Source of the DNA: Streptomyces sp. NBC_01353
GTDB taxonomy: Bacteria; Actinomycetota; Actinomycetes; Streptomycetales; Streptomycetaceae
Direction: 5' to 3'
Length of the DNA stretch: 64,000 bases
Assembly (NCBI RefSeq): GCF_036237275.1
Contig: NZ_CP108352.1
Coordinates: forward strand, 2,232,001-2,296,000
Shown here: positions 49,653-56,964 of the stretch, piece after piece
Numbering within the stretch: position 1 is the first letter of the stretch
Layout: each line of letters starts with the position of its first letter
Position numbers and translations under genes: made by a program
The notes under the pieces: model-generated
The model's input: only the letters and a program-made list of their open reading frames with translations
Database searches by the model: none
What the model was told of the DNA's origin: nothing

Positions 49653-52277
49653 TCAGGACGGGTCGCCGTACTGGAGGCCGCGTCCGTTGGTGCCGACGTA
49701 CACGCGGCCGAAGGTGTCGGGGTCGCCGGTGATGACGCCGACGCCACCGATGCTGCCCCACTGGCGGGCGTCATCGTTGACGCGGAGCCAGGTGGCGCCC
49801 TTGTCCGTCGAGCGGAACACTCCGGTGACGTCCTTGACCGTGCCGATCAGGTACAGGGCCTGGTAGGAGGTGCCGGGTGCGGCCTTGCCGAAGCCGAGGG
49901 CGGAGACGGACTGAACCGTGGTGAGCGTGGTGAACGTGCGGCCGCCGTCGGTGGAGTGCAGCAACCCCTTGGCGCTGCCGGCGATCCACAGGTCTCCGGC
50001 GACGCCGGGGACGGCAGTGAGCCGGCCGGTGGGCAGGTTGGTGGCGCGGGCGGTGAAGGTCGCGCCGCCGTCGGTGCTGGCGTAGAGCGTGCCGCCAACC
50101 AGTGAGTAGAAGGTCTTGGCCGAGGAGCGGTCGGCGACGACCACGGCGTCGGTGCGCAGGCCGCTGACCTTCGACCAGCTCGCCCCCTTGTCGGTCGAGC
50201 GGTACGGGACCTGGCCGGACTCGGTCCAGACGATGGCGGAGCCGTCCGCCGCGAGCGCGACACGGCCATCCTGGGCGCCGGCCACCGGCTCTGACGTGAA
50301 GCCGCTCCAGCTGACGCCGCCGTCGGTGGAGTAGGCGCCGTCCTGCGCGCCGCCACGGCCGACACGGACCATCATCGAGGGGTTGGCCTGAGCGAAGTCG
50401 ATGTCGGTGCTGTTGGTCATCATCGGGTTGTTCAGCCGCCCGGCGTGCACCTTGGTCAGGTCGTCGTGGCGGAAGCCGCCTTGGTCGCCCATGGCCGTGA
50501 TGACGGTGGCACCGCCGGGCGGGGCGATCGCGTCCATCAGCGCGGTCTCCTCAAGGCCCCGCGCTCCGACGGTCCAGTGGCTGGTGCCGCCGCTGTCGGT
50601 GGCGGTGGCGTCCTTGCTGCGCCAGATGCCGTTGCCGGTGCCGTACAGCACGTGCCCGGAGTCGAATGGGTCGATGGCCAGGGCGGTCATCCAGTGCCCG
50701 GTGTGGGTGCCGACGTACGGAGCGGAGGAGGCGTTCCGCACCGACTTGTCCGCCAGTGCCTTCCAGGTCGTGCCGCCGTCGGTGGTGCGGTAGATCTCGT
50801 CCTCGGGCCACCAGCGGTCGAGGGTGGTGACCATCACCGTGGACGGCTTGCGCGGGTCGACGGCCAGCCCGGAGAACCCGTACGAGCCGCGGGACGGGGT
50901 GATGTCCTTCCAAGTCCCACCGGACGGCGTGTGCTTCCAGACCGAGCCCGCCGTCACGCCGTTGGGTCCGAGGGCGTTGGTGTACGTCAGGTACAGCGAG
51001 CCGTCACCGGAGAGCACGCCGTGCTGCGGCAACTGGCCCGTGGGCTGGCCGGGGACGGCCTGCCAGGTGCTGCCGCCATCGGTGGAGCGGTAGAGAGAGG
51101 TGGACCTGTCGGCGACTCCGACGTAGATCGTCTTGCTGCCGGCCGGACCGTACGTCACGAAGGAGATGCCCGCGCCGCTGCTCGCTCCGTCCCTGACGGG
51201 GAACGAAGAGACCTGCCTCCATGTCGCGCCGTGGTCGGTGCTGCGCCACAGGCCGTTCTTGCGGGTGCCCAGCAGCAGGATGCGGTTGTCCGAGGGGTCT
51301 ATCACGAGCCGTTCGCCCGCCCCGCGGCCGTCCTCGTTGCCGCCCAGCTTGAACGGCAGGTCGGTGCGCTGGAAGGTGCGGCCCCGGTCGGTGGAGCGCA
51401 GGAGTGCGCCGTTGCCGGCCCACTCGTTGGTGTAGGTGCCCGCCGCCAGGTAGAGCCGACCCGGGTCAACGGGGTCGGTGGCCACCCCGTCGATGCCCAG
51501 CAGGTTCCAGTCCTTCTCACCGACCCAGTCCGTCAGCGGGATCCACTGCTCGGCACCGGTGTCCCAGCGATAGGCGCCACCCATGTCGGTACGCGCGTAC
51601 AGCAGGCCCTTCTCCCGCGGGTGGAACACCAGCCCGGTGACGTAACCGCCGCCCACCACCTGGGCGTTCCGCCACGTATACGGGCCGGCCTCAGCCGTCT
51701 GGGCGTCGGTCACCTTCACCAGCTTCCACTGCTGGTTGGTGCTGCCCCTGTCGGGATACTGGATGATCGCCGCGCCCTGGGCCGTGGAACCACCTGAGAC
51801 ATCCAGGACCAGGCCGCTCGCGCGGGAGGTGAAGGTGACGGCGTCGGAACCGCTCACGTCGTCGATCCGCCACTCCTGGGAGGCGGAGGAGCTGTCGGTC
51901 TGCTGCTCGGCGGCAGCCGCCTGCGCGGTCGAATCGCCCGCTATGCCGAGCGCTTTGCCGCTGTTGCGGTTCACCAGCTCGTAGTAGCCGTCCCCGGTGG
52001 ACCTCAGCCTCCACTGCTGGTTGGCGGTGGTCTGATCAGTCCACTGCTGGATGCGGGTGCCGTCGGCGGTGGAGAAGGCGTTGACGTCCAGCACCTTGCC
52101 GCTGCGCACCGAGACCAGCTTGTAGTAGGCACTGTCGTCGACCGTCGCGGCCTGCGAGTCGTCCTGCACGAACAGGAGGTACGGCACGACGGTGGCGGGC
52201 ACACCGAGCAGCAGAGCGGTGGCGGTCCTGCGACGGCGGTGACGTCCGCGGCGCCCGGCGTTGGTGGGGTTGTTCAT
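49653..52277 (-). CDS. Secreted xyloglucanase (GH74) with N-terminal RICIN domain
   Basis: An 874-residue exported enzyme expected to cut the beta-1,4-glucan backbone of xyloglucan. A basic N-terminus and signal segment (residues 17-43) lead into a RICIN/CBM13-type trefoil (about 45-190: QWTDQTTANQQWRL, NRNSGKALGIAG, GSTNQQWKLV). The GH74 twin beta-propeller (about 195-874) follows. It begins WRNAQVVGGGYVTGLVFHP and TDMGGAYRWD (with the family Asp) and has repeated RSTDGG/STDKGATW Asp-box-like blades and GLEETALMDAIAPPGG. The downstream hairpin is at 49544. It runs in the same direction as the xylanase gene 39 bases upstream, so they may be co-transcribed. Confidence 0.92.
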   Translation of the reverse strand: MNNPTNAGRRGRHRRRRTATALLLGVPATVVPYLLFVQDDSQAATVDDSAYYKLVSVRSGKVLDVNAFSTADGTRIQQWTDQTTANQQWRLRSTGDGYYELVNRNSGKALGIAGDSTAQAAAAEQQTDSSSASQEWRIDDVSGSDAVTFTSRASGLVLDVSGGSTAQGAAIIQYPDRGSTNQQWKLVKVTDAQTAEAGPYTWRNAQVVGGGYVTGLVFHPREKGLLYARTDMGGAYRWDTGAEQWIPLTDWVGEKDWNLLGIDGVATDPVDPGRLYLAAGTYTNEWAGNGALLRSTDRGRTFQRTDLPFKLGGNEDGRGAGERLVIDPSDNRILLLGTRKNGLWRSTDHGATWRQVSSFPVRDGASSGAGISFVTYGPAGSKTIYVGVADRSTSLYRSTDGGSTWQAVPGQPTGQLPQHGVLSGDGSLYLTYTNALGPNGVTAGSVWKHTPSGGTWKDITPSRGSYGFSGLAVDPRKPSTVMVTTLDRWWPEDEIYRTTDGGTTWKALADKSVRNASSAPYVGTHTGHWMTALAIDPFDSGHVLYGTGNGIWRSKDATATDSGGTSHWTVGARGLEETALMDAIAPPGGATVITAMGDQGGFRHDDLTKVHAGRLNNPMMTNSTDIDFAQANPSMMVRVGRGGAQDGAYSTDGGVSWSGFTSEPVAGAQDGRVALAADGSAIVWTESGQVPYRSTDKGASWSKVSGLRTDAVVVADRSSAKTFYSLVGGTLYASTDGGATFTARATNLPTGRLTAVPGVAGDLWIAGSAKGLLHSTDGGRTFTTLTTVQSVSALGFGKAAPGTSYQALYLIGTVKDVTGVFRSTDKGATWLRVNDDARQWGSIGGVGVITGDPDTFGRVYVGTNGRGLQYGDPS

Positions 52278-52316: not shown

Positions 52317-55085
<2,769 letters not shown>

Positions 55086-56651
55086 TCAGGCCCCGGGGCT
55101 GCGCACGATGAAGGAAGCCTGGCCGGCGAAGGCCCGCGTGCCGTCGGAGCCGTCGAGCCAGATGCCGCCGTCGCGGTGGCGGAGGACCGATCCCGGATAG
55201 TTGTGCGCGTGCAGGGTCACGGACCCGGCGACCGCCCCGGGACGGGGACAGAAGGTGGCGTCTTCACGGAACAGTGCGCTGCCGTCGTCAGTGCTCAGCC
55301 GCAGCCGCAGGTAGTGGTGGCGAAGATACCGGCCGTCTGCGGCGCGGAAGGTGACGCACCGCATGTCGGCCAGTCCCCCGACGACCGTGAAGGTGACCCG
55401 CTGACGTGCCTGCGCGCTGCTGGACGCGGCGACGCTGCCGAGCGCCGCGAAGTCGCCCGTGTACGTGACGAACAGGCCGGGACTGTCCGCGGACTCCAGC
55501 GACTGTGCGCCCAGCGGAACGGTGCCCGCGACGGCGGACGGGCCGACCGAGGGAGGGCTCACCGGGGACGGTCCCGCCGAGGTGGTGGTGCGCGAGGGAA
55601 GGGGCGTGGGAGTGCCGACCGTGGGAGCGGCAGTGGCGCCGGGCAAACGAGGCGCCGGTTCGGGCCAGGTCGCATAGGTGGCGGTCCCGGCGATGAGTAC
55701 CGCGCCGGTCGCGAGGCTCACCAGCGGATGAGCGGTCACCGCCTGGAGTTTGCCGATCAGAGCGCCGTGCAGACCGCCTCCCCCCGTCGCCGTGCCGACG
55801 GCGACGGGGGCCGCGGCCAGCCCGGCGGCGCTCGCTGCCGTACCCGACAGCAAGCCCTTGGCGGCCAGCGCGGCGATCAGTGCGGCCGGGACGGCCAGCG
55901 TCGTGAGGCTGAGGGGCAGCAGTTCGGCCGGAACCCGTTCCGCCGACGTCGCCATGCAGACCGGGCAGTCACGTGTGTGCCGCGCGATCCGCTTGCGCCA
56001 CACCGATGCACGGTGACCGTCCCATGCGACGACGGTCTCCCCCAGCTGCGGACAGCGCGGGTCGGCCTCCAGCGCGGCGACGATCGTCCGGCACAGTTCC
56101 AGCTGCTCCCGCATGCGTTGGAGGCGCACTCCGACGTGCGCAACCGTGAGCCCCGTCGCGGCGGCCATGTCCTCCCGGCTGAGCAGGCCGGCGCATTCCT
56201 GCCACCACAGCGACAGCAGCACCCGGTGGTCCGGGTCGAGCCACCGGCCGGCTTCGACGACCCGGCGCCGCTCGTCCGACACGTGCAGCCGCAGGATCGT
56301 CACGTCCACGGGCTCGGCGCCGGCGTCCGGTATCCGGCGTGCCTCGTCGATGACCGTGGTCCGGTCGGCGAGGGCGTGCTGCCGGTGCCAGTGGGTGTTG
56401 ATCTGGCGGAGCGTGATCGACACCAGCCAGGACCGAAAGCTCTCCGGGGCACGCAGGGCGGGCAGGTCACGCACCACGCGCAGCAGGGTCTCCTGGACGA
56501 CGTCGTCGACGTCGGCATGTCCGCTCAGCGCTCGCCCGACGATGTTGTACAGCAACGGCAGGTACGCGGCGATCAGCTCCTCGCGCGCCCGATCGTCACC
56601 GGCCTGCGCCGCGACAACCAGCCCCGCGTGGTCTGCGTCCTTGAGCCCCAT
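55086..56651 (-). CDS. Single-chain ECF sigma factor / zinc finger / membrane / AbfB sensor protein
   Basis: 521 residues from ATG 56651 (GGTGGGA site). Residues 10-185 are an ECF sigma factor: AREELIAAYLPLLYNIVGRA, DVDDVVQETLLRVVRDL, FRSWLVSITLRQINTHWHRQ, then region 4 with LSREDMAAATGLTVAHVGVR. About residues 225-232 carry HTRDCPVC, an HxxxCxxC motif like that of zinc anti-sigma domains. One or two hydrophobic segments follow (about 245-285 and 315-330), then a Pro/Ser/Thr-rich linker. The C-terminal 140 residues form an AbfB (CBM42-like) beta-trefoil: GRYLRHHYLRLRL, DDGSALFREDATFCPRPG, LHAHNYPGSVLRHRDGGIWL. The C-terminus should be outside and bind arabinose-type side chains. The neighbouring arabinoxylanase suggests that it senses that substrate. 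C-terminally extended ECF factors are known in Actinobacteria; this exact domain set I have inferred. Confidence 0.88.
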   Translation of the reverse strand: MGLKDADHAGLVVAAQAGDDRAREELIAAYLPLLYNIVGRALSGHADVDDVVQETLLRVVRDLPALRAPESFRSWLVSITLRQINTHWHRQHALADRTTVIDEARRIPDAGAEPVDVTILRLHVSDERRRVVEAGRWLDPDHRVLLSLWWQECAGLLSREDMAAATGLTVAHVGVRLQRMREQLELCRTIVAALEADPRCPQLGETVVAWDGHRASVWRKRIARHTRDCPVCMATSAERVPAELLPLSLTTLAVPAALIAALAAKGLLSGTAASAAGLAAAPVAVGTATGGGGLHGALIGKLQAVTAHPLVSLATGAVLIAGTATYATWPEPAPRLPGATAAPTVGTPTPLPSRTTTSAGPSPVSPPSVGPSAVAGTVPLGAQSLESADSPGLFVTYTGDFAALGSVAASSSAQARQRVTFTVVGGLADMRCVTFRAADGRYLRHHYLRLRLSTDDGSALFREDATFCPRPGAVAGSVTLHAHNYPGSVLRHRDGGIWLDGSDGTRAFAGQASFIVRSPGA

Positions 56652-56964
56652 TCCCACCTTCTTCAGGGGAGCGATCCGCCGAGTACGGCGGCACACCCTA
56701 GCCTCGACGAAGGCATACGGCCAAAGCCTGCGCCTCGGGCGGACGGTCTGCCCGTGCCGACATGGAAGGCCCGGCGCCCGGGGGGTGTGTCCGGTCCCAC
56801 TCGGCCAACTTGCTGACGGCCCATTCAAGCCGATGATCTCGGAAGGCCACGCGCGGTGGGGCTCCACGCTCCAAAGAACCCCTGACACAACACGCATCGG
56901 ACGCCCCACCTAGCGTCACGGAACGTCACTCTCGAGAAGCGGATGGGGCAGGGGCAGCCAACAG
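56652..56964. other. Region upstream of the membrane sigma factor gene
   Basis: No gene that I can support. It includes the TTCTTCAGGGGA motif at 56659-56670 next to the sigma gene start. Confidence 0.4.

Follow-up and report, generated by a model that had tools for sequence, protein, structure and literature searches.

The one-chain protein P0002, encoded in the 64,000-nucleotide stretch of Streptomyces sp. NBC_01353 DNA analysed here (the window), is probably a self-contained switch that senses arabinofuranose and acts on transcription from one promoter. In the mechanism we propose, the sigma part would be kept against the cytoplasmic side of the membrane by the zinc anti-sigma domain C-terminal to it in the same chain and by the membrane helix, while the AbfB/CBM42 domain, carried on a Pro/Ser/Thr stalk, would sample arabinofuranosyl side chains outside the cell. 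Binding of ligand or cleavage of the stalk would free the sigma part, most likely by regulated proteolysis. The freed sigma part would direct RNA polymerase to the bipartite element TTTCTGTTAC-N19-CCTCC (54837-54870), from which the GH10-GH62 arabinoxylanase gene, and then the GH74 gene behind it, would be expressed. The proposal is built on features read from sequence, namely the domains, the conserved ligand residues, the linkage and a promoter-like element common to the family. From these we infer that AbfB lies outside, that ligand is answered, that proteolysis takes place and that this sigma factor recognises the element. The interpretation offered by an earlier, sequence-only reading, of a sigma factor released when arabinose side chains are bound or the chain is cut, is partly supported. 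The features are collected in Table 1.

Table 1. Features of the sigma gene and its neighbourhood (positions in the window; residues are those of P0002)
Feature	Position	Strand	Basis or remark
One-chain ECF sigma/zinc anti-sigma/membrane/AbfB protein (P0002)	55086..56651	minus	521 aa; stop codon included
Sigma-70 region 2, residues 26-91	56379..56576	minus	Pfam PF04542, E 4e-13
Sigma region 4, residues about 126-190	56082..56276	minus	TIGR02937 match 22-185; helices in AF2 model
Zinc anti-sigma motif, C200 ... H225xxxC229xxC232	55956..56054	minus	Ligand conservation
Hydrophobic segment 1, residues 245-268	55848..55919	minus	Taken to belong to the anti-sigma domain, not to be a membrane span
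Probable transmembrane helix, residues 309-329	55665..55727	minus	Insertion-scale score
Pro/Ser/Thr-rich linker, residues 333-378	55518..55655	minus	Sequence and alignment
AbfB/CBM42 beta-trefoil, residues 384-516	55104..55502	minus	Pfam PF05270, E 1e-38
Candidate vegetative (HrdB-like) promoter of the sigma gene, TTTGGCC..TAGGGT	56695..56725	minus	TARGGT counts
Conserved 31-bp block CATAACGCTTTCTGCCTGCGAGATGCATCAC / CRTAACRCTTTYNGCCNGCGAGATGCATCAC	54897..54927	minus	Alignment of relatives
Predicted sigma-dependent promoter TTTCTGTTAC-N19-CCTCC	54837..54870	minus	Conservation, family-wide occurrence
GH10-CBM13 (ricin-B)-GH62 arabinoxylanase frame	52317..54905	minus	Pfam; likely true start ATG 54680
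Ricin-B lectin and GH74 xyloglucanase	49653..52277	minus	39 bp after the GH10-GH62 gene

The sequence-only reading had described ECF regions 2 and 4, the motif HTRDCPVC, hydrophobic segments, a Pro/Ser/Thr linker and an AbfB trefoil in one chain, and Pfam, NCBIfam and alignment agree with it, the profile match of the C-terminus to AbfB/CBM42, which covers the complete domain, included. The gene starts with the ATG at 56651 on the minus strand. The matches to PF04542, to TIGR02937 and, in the PDB, to SigE/RpoE identify P0002 as an ECF sigma factor with regions 2 and 4 only; a separate Pfam match to region 4 is absent, and TIGR02937, the NCBIfam sigma70-ECF model, spans both sigma regions. The domain matches far exceed chance. 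An AF2 model of residues 1-275 reached a pTM of 0.80, and that of the full-length protein was poor (pTM 0.36).

Zinc anti-sigma (ZAS) domains carry an HxxxCxxC pattern together with an upstream Cys or His ligand. The HTRDCPVC of P0002 corresponds to H225-x3-C229-x2-C232, and with C200 it makes up a four-ligand zinc set that is kept in all 65 aligned sequences (64 related loci and the window protein) and is invariant in 60 aligned members of the wider sigma-module family. The assignment of the middle of the chain to a ZAS domain is thus upheld by motif and ligands, but not by the Pfam zinc-finger models, which gave no match to P0002 at E ≤ 1. The zinc domain is predicted to serve as an anti-sigma factor that holds the sigma part of its own chain.

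The closest structures to the AbfB domain in the PDB include 2D43/1WD3 and that of RsgI5 (9FNK). Two cysteines, C432 and C468, are both present in 63/65 sequences and align with two cysteines of the fungal AkAbfB, which presumably form a disulfide there. In the beta pocket, H445 is kept in 64 and D464 in 63 of the 65 aligned sequences, with the same spacing as H70 and D89 of the AtAbf43C CBM42, residues that contact arabinose according to the published passages on that module (PMC12493170). Judged by motif spacing, the beta-pocket Tyr is replaced by Leu in P0002; by motif, Gln511 stands in the gamma pocket where Asp is expected, and the alpha pocket has no His. The gamma and alpha pockets therefore look degenerate, on a mapping made by motif and alignment and not by structure. 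Binding of arabinofuranose by the domain is predicted. A search of the window's genome at E ≤ 0.001 returned no other AbfB domain.

The next genes on the same strand had been read as a GH10-GH62 arabinoxylanase and a GH74 xyloglucanase. Pfam agrees, and the C-terminal 495 residues of the GH74 gene product match GH74 xyloglucanases (2CN3, E 3e-128). The true start of the GH10-GH62 gene is likely to be the ATG at 54680, because of the signal peptide and the reading of the intergenic region. Immediately before it (54680-54739, minus strand), a short frame begins at an ATGAC start and at its end overlaps the enzyme's start through ATGA; the ATGAC motif is found in 58/61 intergenic regions, with a CCCCTGAAGAAAG-like stretch before it in most loci, and in some relatives the short frame seems to be joined, in the same reading frame, to the signal peptide of the enzyme. 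Read by eye, it is possibly a leader peptide.

The suggested co-occurrence of the sigma gene with arabinoxylanase genes was borne out among its relatives. A scan of a GTDB-based collection gave 103 matching stretches, the best 80 of which represent 76 loci; linkage was counted by tblastn in 69 loci (68 of these, L012-L079, and the window), L080-L087 being excluded as not orthologous to the AbfB-sigma over the full length. Within this sample from the best 80 of 103 stretches, GH10 and GH62 both lie downstream on the same strand, at most 3.5 kb away, in 61/69 loci, and GH62 does so in 62/69; the 61 are not independent events, because orthologues from related species share ancestry. GH74 comes next, within 6.5 kb, in 42 of the 69. 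When neighbours were clustered in the 65 loci with a called sigma frame (it was not called in L018, L056, L072 and L079), the two enzyme clusters appeared in 60 and 46 loci and any other neighbour in at most seven, so the unit was preserved as the genes around it were rearranged.

In 7/69 loci both GH10 and GH62 are missing from the vicinity; six of these are distant (L067, L070, L072, L073, L074 and L079), and the seventh is L029. In L029 the GH10-GH62 gene is missing and GH74 adjoins the sigma gene. A Pfam scan of 28 chosen neighbour proteins, together with the clusters, showed GH127 and GH62 beside the sigma gene in Phytomonospora (L069), an alpha-L-fucosidase and a LacI-type gene in Catellatospora (the latter by Pfam in L067 and by cluster in L074), and other genes in the Micromonospora loci.

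The bipartite element follows the sigma gene closely. In its strict form, TTTYNGTTAY-N18/19-YCTCC, it lies between the sigma gene and GH10-GH62 in 60/61 loci, with a spacer of 19 in 59 of the 60; base-shuffled intergenic regions contain it 0.01 times per 61. Among the related loci from the best 80 of 103 stretches, 65/68 have the strict element at most 750 bp behind the sigma gene; elsewhere in the 1,394,960 bases of these 68 loci, both strands considered, it is absent. The remaining three are L028 and L070, which have variants, and L079, which has none. The element is kept before GH74 in L029, where GH10-GH62 is missing, and before GH127 in Phytomonospora; two of the three Micromonospora loci and both Catellatospora loci keep it before other genes. 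The window's whole genome contains the strict pattern at two sites, one ahead of GH10-GH62 and the other ahead of a paralogous sigma gene.

The region upstream of the AbfB-sigma gene itself (about 272 bp) gave a different picture. The strict and relaxed elements are found there in 0/69 loci and the most relaxed form in 1/69, and autoregulation of the AbfB-sigma gene was dropped on this ground. A vegetative promoter seems tentatively to take the place of the element: TARGGT lies within 110 bp of the sigma-gene start in 42/69 loci, and TTTGG..TARGGT in 24/69, the call being based on what we take to be the HrdB-like consensus. We read the bipartite element as the putative promoter of the whole family, placed in the AbfB lineage on the target enzyme and not on the sigma gene.

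A second conserved feature of the same intergenic region, the 31-bp block, is matched in 59/61 loci with substitutions only (gapless search); in loci where both could be located, its start is 47-57 nt ahead of the TTTYNGTTACG element. Its right half resembles what we take to be a CRP-type palindrome. The combination of CRTAACG and GCGAGATGCATCAC, presumably CRP-like as well, was considered as the sigma promoter and rejected, since among the seven Micromonosporaceae loci L069 matches in part and the other six have no good match.

The sigma module is not confined to the AbfB lineage, being found at 125 places in 80 of the 101 family genomes searched. Ectodomains were read at 60 of the 125 places: 32 are CAP, 21 Glyco_hydro_cc, five AbfB and two GH99-like, all on a conserved chassis, in proportions that may be biased because mostly the best-scoring places were read. 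On the tree of the family the AbfB ectodomain needs two changes. The odd one out is L186, which sits on a long branch with an unsure position; this second AbfB-sigma lineage has no element and, with neighbours read by eye, no recognisable arabinan gene in 9.8 kb. A Kineosporia relative (L080:9950-11923) carries an Lcl_C ectodomain on the same sigma chassis.

Among the 55 non-AbfB members, 28 have the strict element in the 300 bp that precede the sigma gene, as compared with one on the opposite strand and none when the pattern was run backwards. Other genes in the same loci, leaving out same-strand genes that start within 700 bp of the sigma start, have it in 8/278 cases (Fisher p about 1e-18, ignoring relatedness). 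Two relaxed forms precede 37 and 43 of the 55 sister sigma genes, versus 10 and 11 of the 278 other genes. Thus 27/55 sister genes are without the strict form and 12/55 without the most relaxed one. The window's genome has three paralogues; the element stands before two of them, once in shortened form, and the third has a variant seen by eye.

Genes other than the sigma genes bear the element as well. All eight such control genes adjoin CAP-type sigmas, and the six scanned with Pfam are all CAP proteins. Counted with a CAP profile built in this analysis, CAP neighbours of CAP-sigmas have the strict element in 8/15 cases versus 0/199 for other neighbours (p about 7e-11). Separate CAP-protein genes bearing the element adjoin CAP-sigmas at L161, L146, L164, L170, L148 and L184. 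At the five AbfB loci of the survey, the element precedes 3/29 neighbours, and all three encode a GH10-type enzyme. For CAP, and by substrate for AbfB, ectodomain and target therefore match. For Glyco_hydro_cc members the strict element stands only before the sigma gene and before 0/121 neighbours, and in L186 a match between ectodomain and target was looked for and not seen.

Across 41 genomes the strict pattern occurs at 29 sites, with 18/41 genomes having one, and the backwards control occurs once. The 28 sites that were scanned include 16 before family sigma genes, three before CAP genes and one before the present GH10-GH62 gene. Two of the other nine of the 29 sites lead to secreted alginate-lyase-like proteins and one to a similar-looking Tat protein; two lead to proteins with sub-threshold matches only (sortase-anchor and peptidase models) and for the last four the target is unclear; two of them are one identical sequence, present in two genomes, after which no gene is called on that strand. 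The element-bearing secreted proteins, two alginate-lyase-like and the third similar, come from other Streptomycetaceae (L203, L212, L213).

Taken together, we give even chances to the view that this family of one-chain sigma factors shares one promoter type (GTTAY-N18/19-YCTCC) and that the ectodomain matches the secreted protein turned on. CAP-sigmas would then turn on themselves and the neighbouring CAP gene, and the AbfB-sigma, non-autoregulated and near single-target, the arabinofuranosidase/xylanase, the ectodomain having been exchanged several times on one chassis. With a sensor, a likely ligand, a likely target operon and a specific promoter named together, the mechanism becomes testable. 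If it is true, the target of a sigma factor of this kind can be predicted from its ectodomain, and a modular polysaccharide sensor could be built on the chassis.

Two other explanations of the locus were weighed. AbfB could be an anchor or adhesin on the substrate, with the sigma part answering another cue such as envelope stress or wall damage. Some weight is lent to this by the 32/60 family members whose ectodomain is CAP and not a carbohydrate-active domain, which shows that sugars are not the family's only concern; we nevertheless consider it unlikely, given the linkage of the AbfB lineage to GH10/GH62 and the element-bearing CAP genes beside CAP-sigmas, in the counts given above. It is less probable again that the bipartite element is the site of another regulator and the sigma factor a mere passenger beside enzyme genes: the second conserved block (CATAACG...GCGAGATGCATCAC) does suggest that further factors act in the same intergenic region, but the element precedes sister sigma genes, stays beside the AbfB-sigma gene although the next gene changes, and has a near-fixed spacing that resembles a -35/-10 pair.

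The sensor reading also depends on the side of the membrane on which AbfB lies. A membrane anchor, as in the sequence-only reading, is predicted; there are two hydrophobic segments, and a single span is likely. In the window protein, residues 247-265 and 310-328 have insertion scores of 1.9 and 1.5, the means over the 65 aligned sequences being 2.7 and 1.9, on a scale used for comparing segments only. Because segment 1 scores so close to segment 2 in the window protein, a two-span hairpin is possible, which would put AbfB in the cytoplasm, sensing imported arabino-oligosaccharides. This is improbable in the light of the three CAP-bearing paralogues encoded in this genome, where segment 1 scores 3.5 to about 6, too weak for a span, and the later segment is clear (1.5 or less) and preceded by Arg-rich sequence in two and by LRR in the third. 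In addition, segment 1 is modelled as short helices (pLDDT 71-87, AF2 model of residues 1-275), and the Pro/Ser/Thr linker and the conserved cysteine pair fit an outside location. From the weak paralogue segment, the short helices and the cysteines, one membrane pass with AbfB outside is clearly favoured and likely to be correct.

Sigma factor, anti-sigma factor and receptor had been taken to be normally separate proteins, and the fusion to be unusual. Put in this way the view is not supported, and a categorically new design is rejected, since ECF52 and ECF53 have already been described as combining sigma factor, zinc finger, membrane segment and carbohydrate-active extension (PMC8999054, PMC10766802, PMC5826349). 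According to passages of one review, experimental validation of the carbohydrate-active one-chain versions is yet to come (PMC10766802). Our literature search, which did not extend to the published ECF classification, found no report of an ECF sigma factor with AbfB; the AbfB member or its promoter may already be listed in that classification.

Assignment of P0002 to ECF52 was rejected: it gave no blastp match at E ≤ 10 to L193, the NPCBM protein of the same genome (not SCO4117 itself), whose N-terminal part was read by eye as a sigma factor, and it has AbfB instead of NPCBM. The smart00776 module of SCO4117, the ECF52 protein of Streptomyces coelicolor, is presumably NPCBM. As far as the published passages go, SCO4117 is alike in joining an ECF sigma factor, zinc finger, transmembrane segment, Pro-rich extension and carbohydrate-binding domain in one chain, from which a protease is proposed to cut out the sigma part, and differs in its smart00776 binding module and in its pleiotropic effects on differentiation and antibiotics (PMC5826349). 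The features described for ECF53, a fused zinc-finger anti-sigma, one to two membrane helices and predicted glycosyl hydrolase or carbohydrate-binding domains, are all found in P0002, compared by description only; the Glyco_hydro_cc and GH99-like sister proteins fit the description too, and proteolysis is expected (PMC8999054, PMC10766802). The published passages on ECF53 mention neither AbfB nor a promoter nor an arabinoxylanase as dedicated target (PMC8999054, PMC10766802), and in these points P0002, as proposed here, differs.

Two further systems share parts of the proposed mechanism, in the passages that describe them. In Clostridium thermocellum RsgI5 (PDB 9FNK), an arabinose-binding CBM42 senses on a membrane anti-sigma factor; SigI/RsgI sensor domains vary between paralogues, and RseP cleaves RsgI in its membrane helix (PMC4711584, PMC12203970). 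There, however, sigma and anti-sigma are separate and RsgI undergoes autocleavage of its periplasmic domain (PMC4711584, PMC12203970), whereas P0002 is a single chain with no RsgI_N Pfam match and no separate SigI. IutY, the ECF243 protein of Pseudomonas putida, is likewise a sigma factor fused to a membrane anti-sigma and released by Prc and RseP, but it serves iron-siderophore signalling, and the passages on it name no carbohydrate-binding domain (PMC8999054). The fused architecture and a CBM42 on an anti-sigma factor (RsgI5) are thus already known, and what the analysis adds is a member with an AbfB ectodomain, together with its proposed promoter and target.
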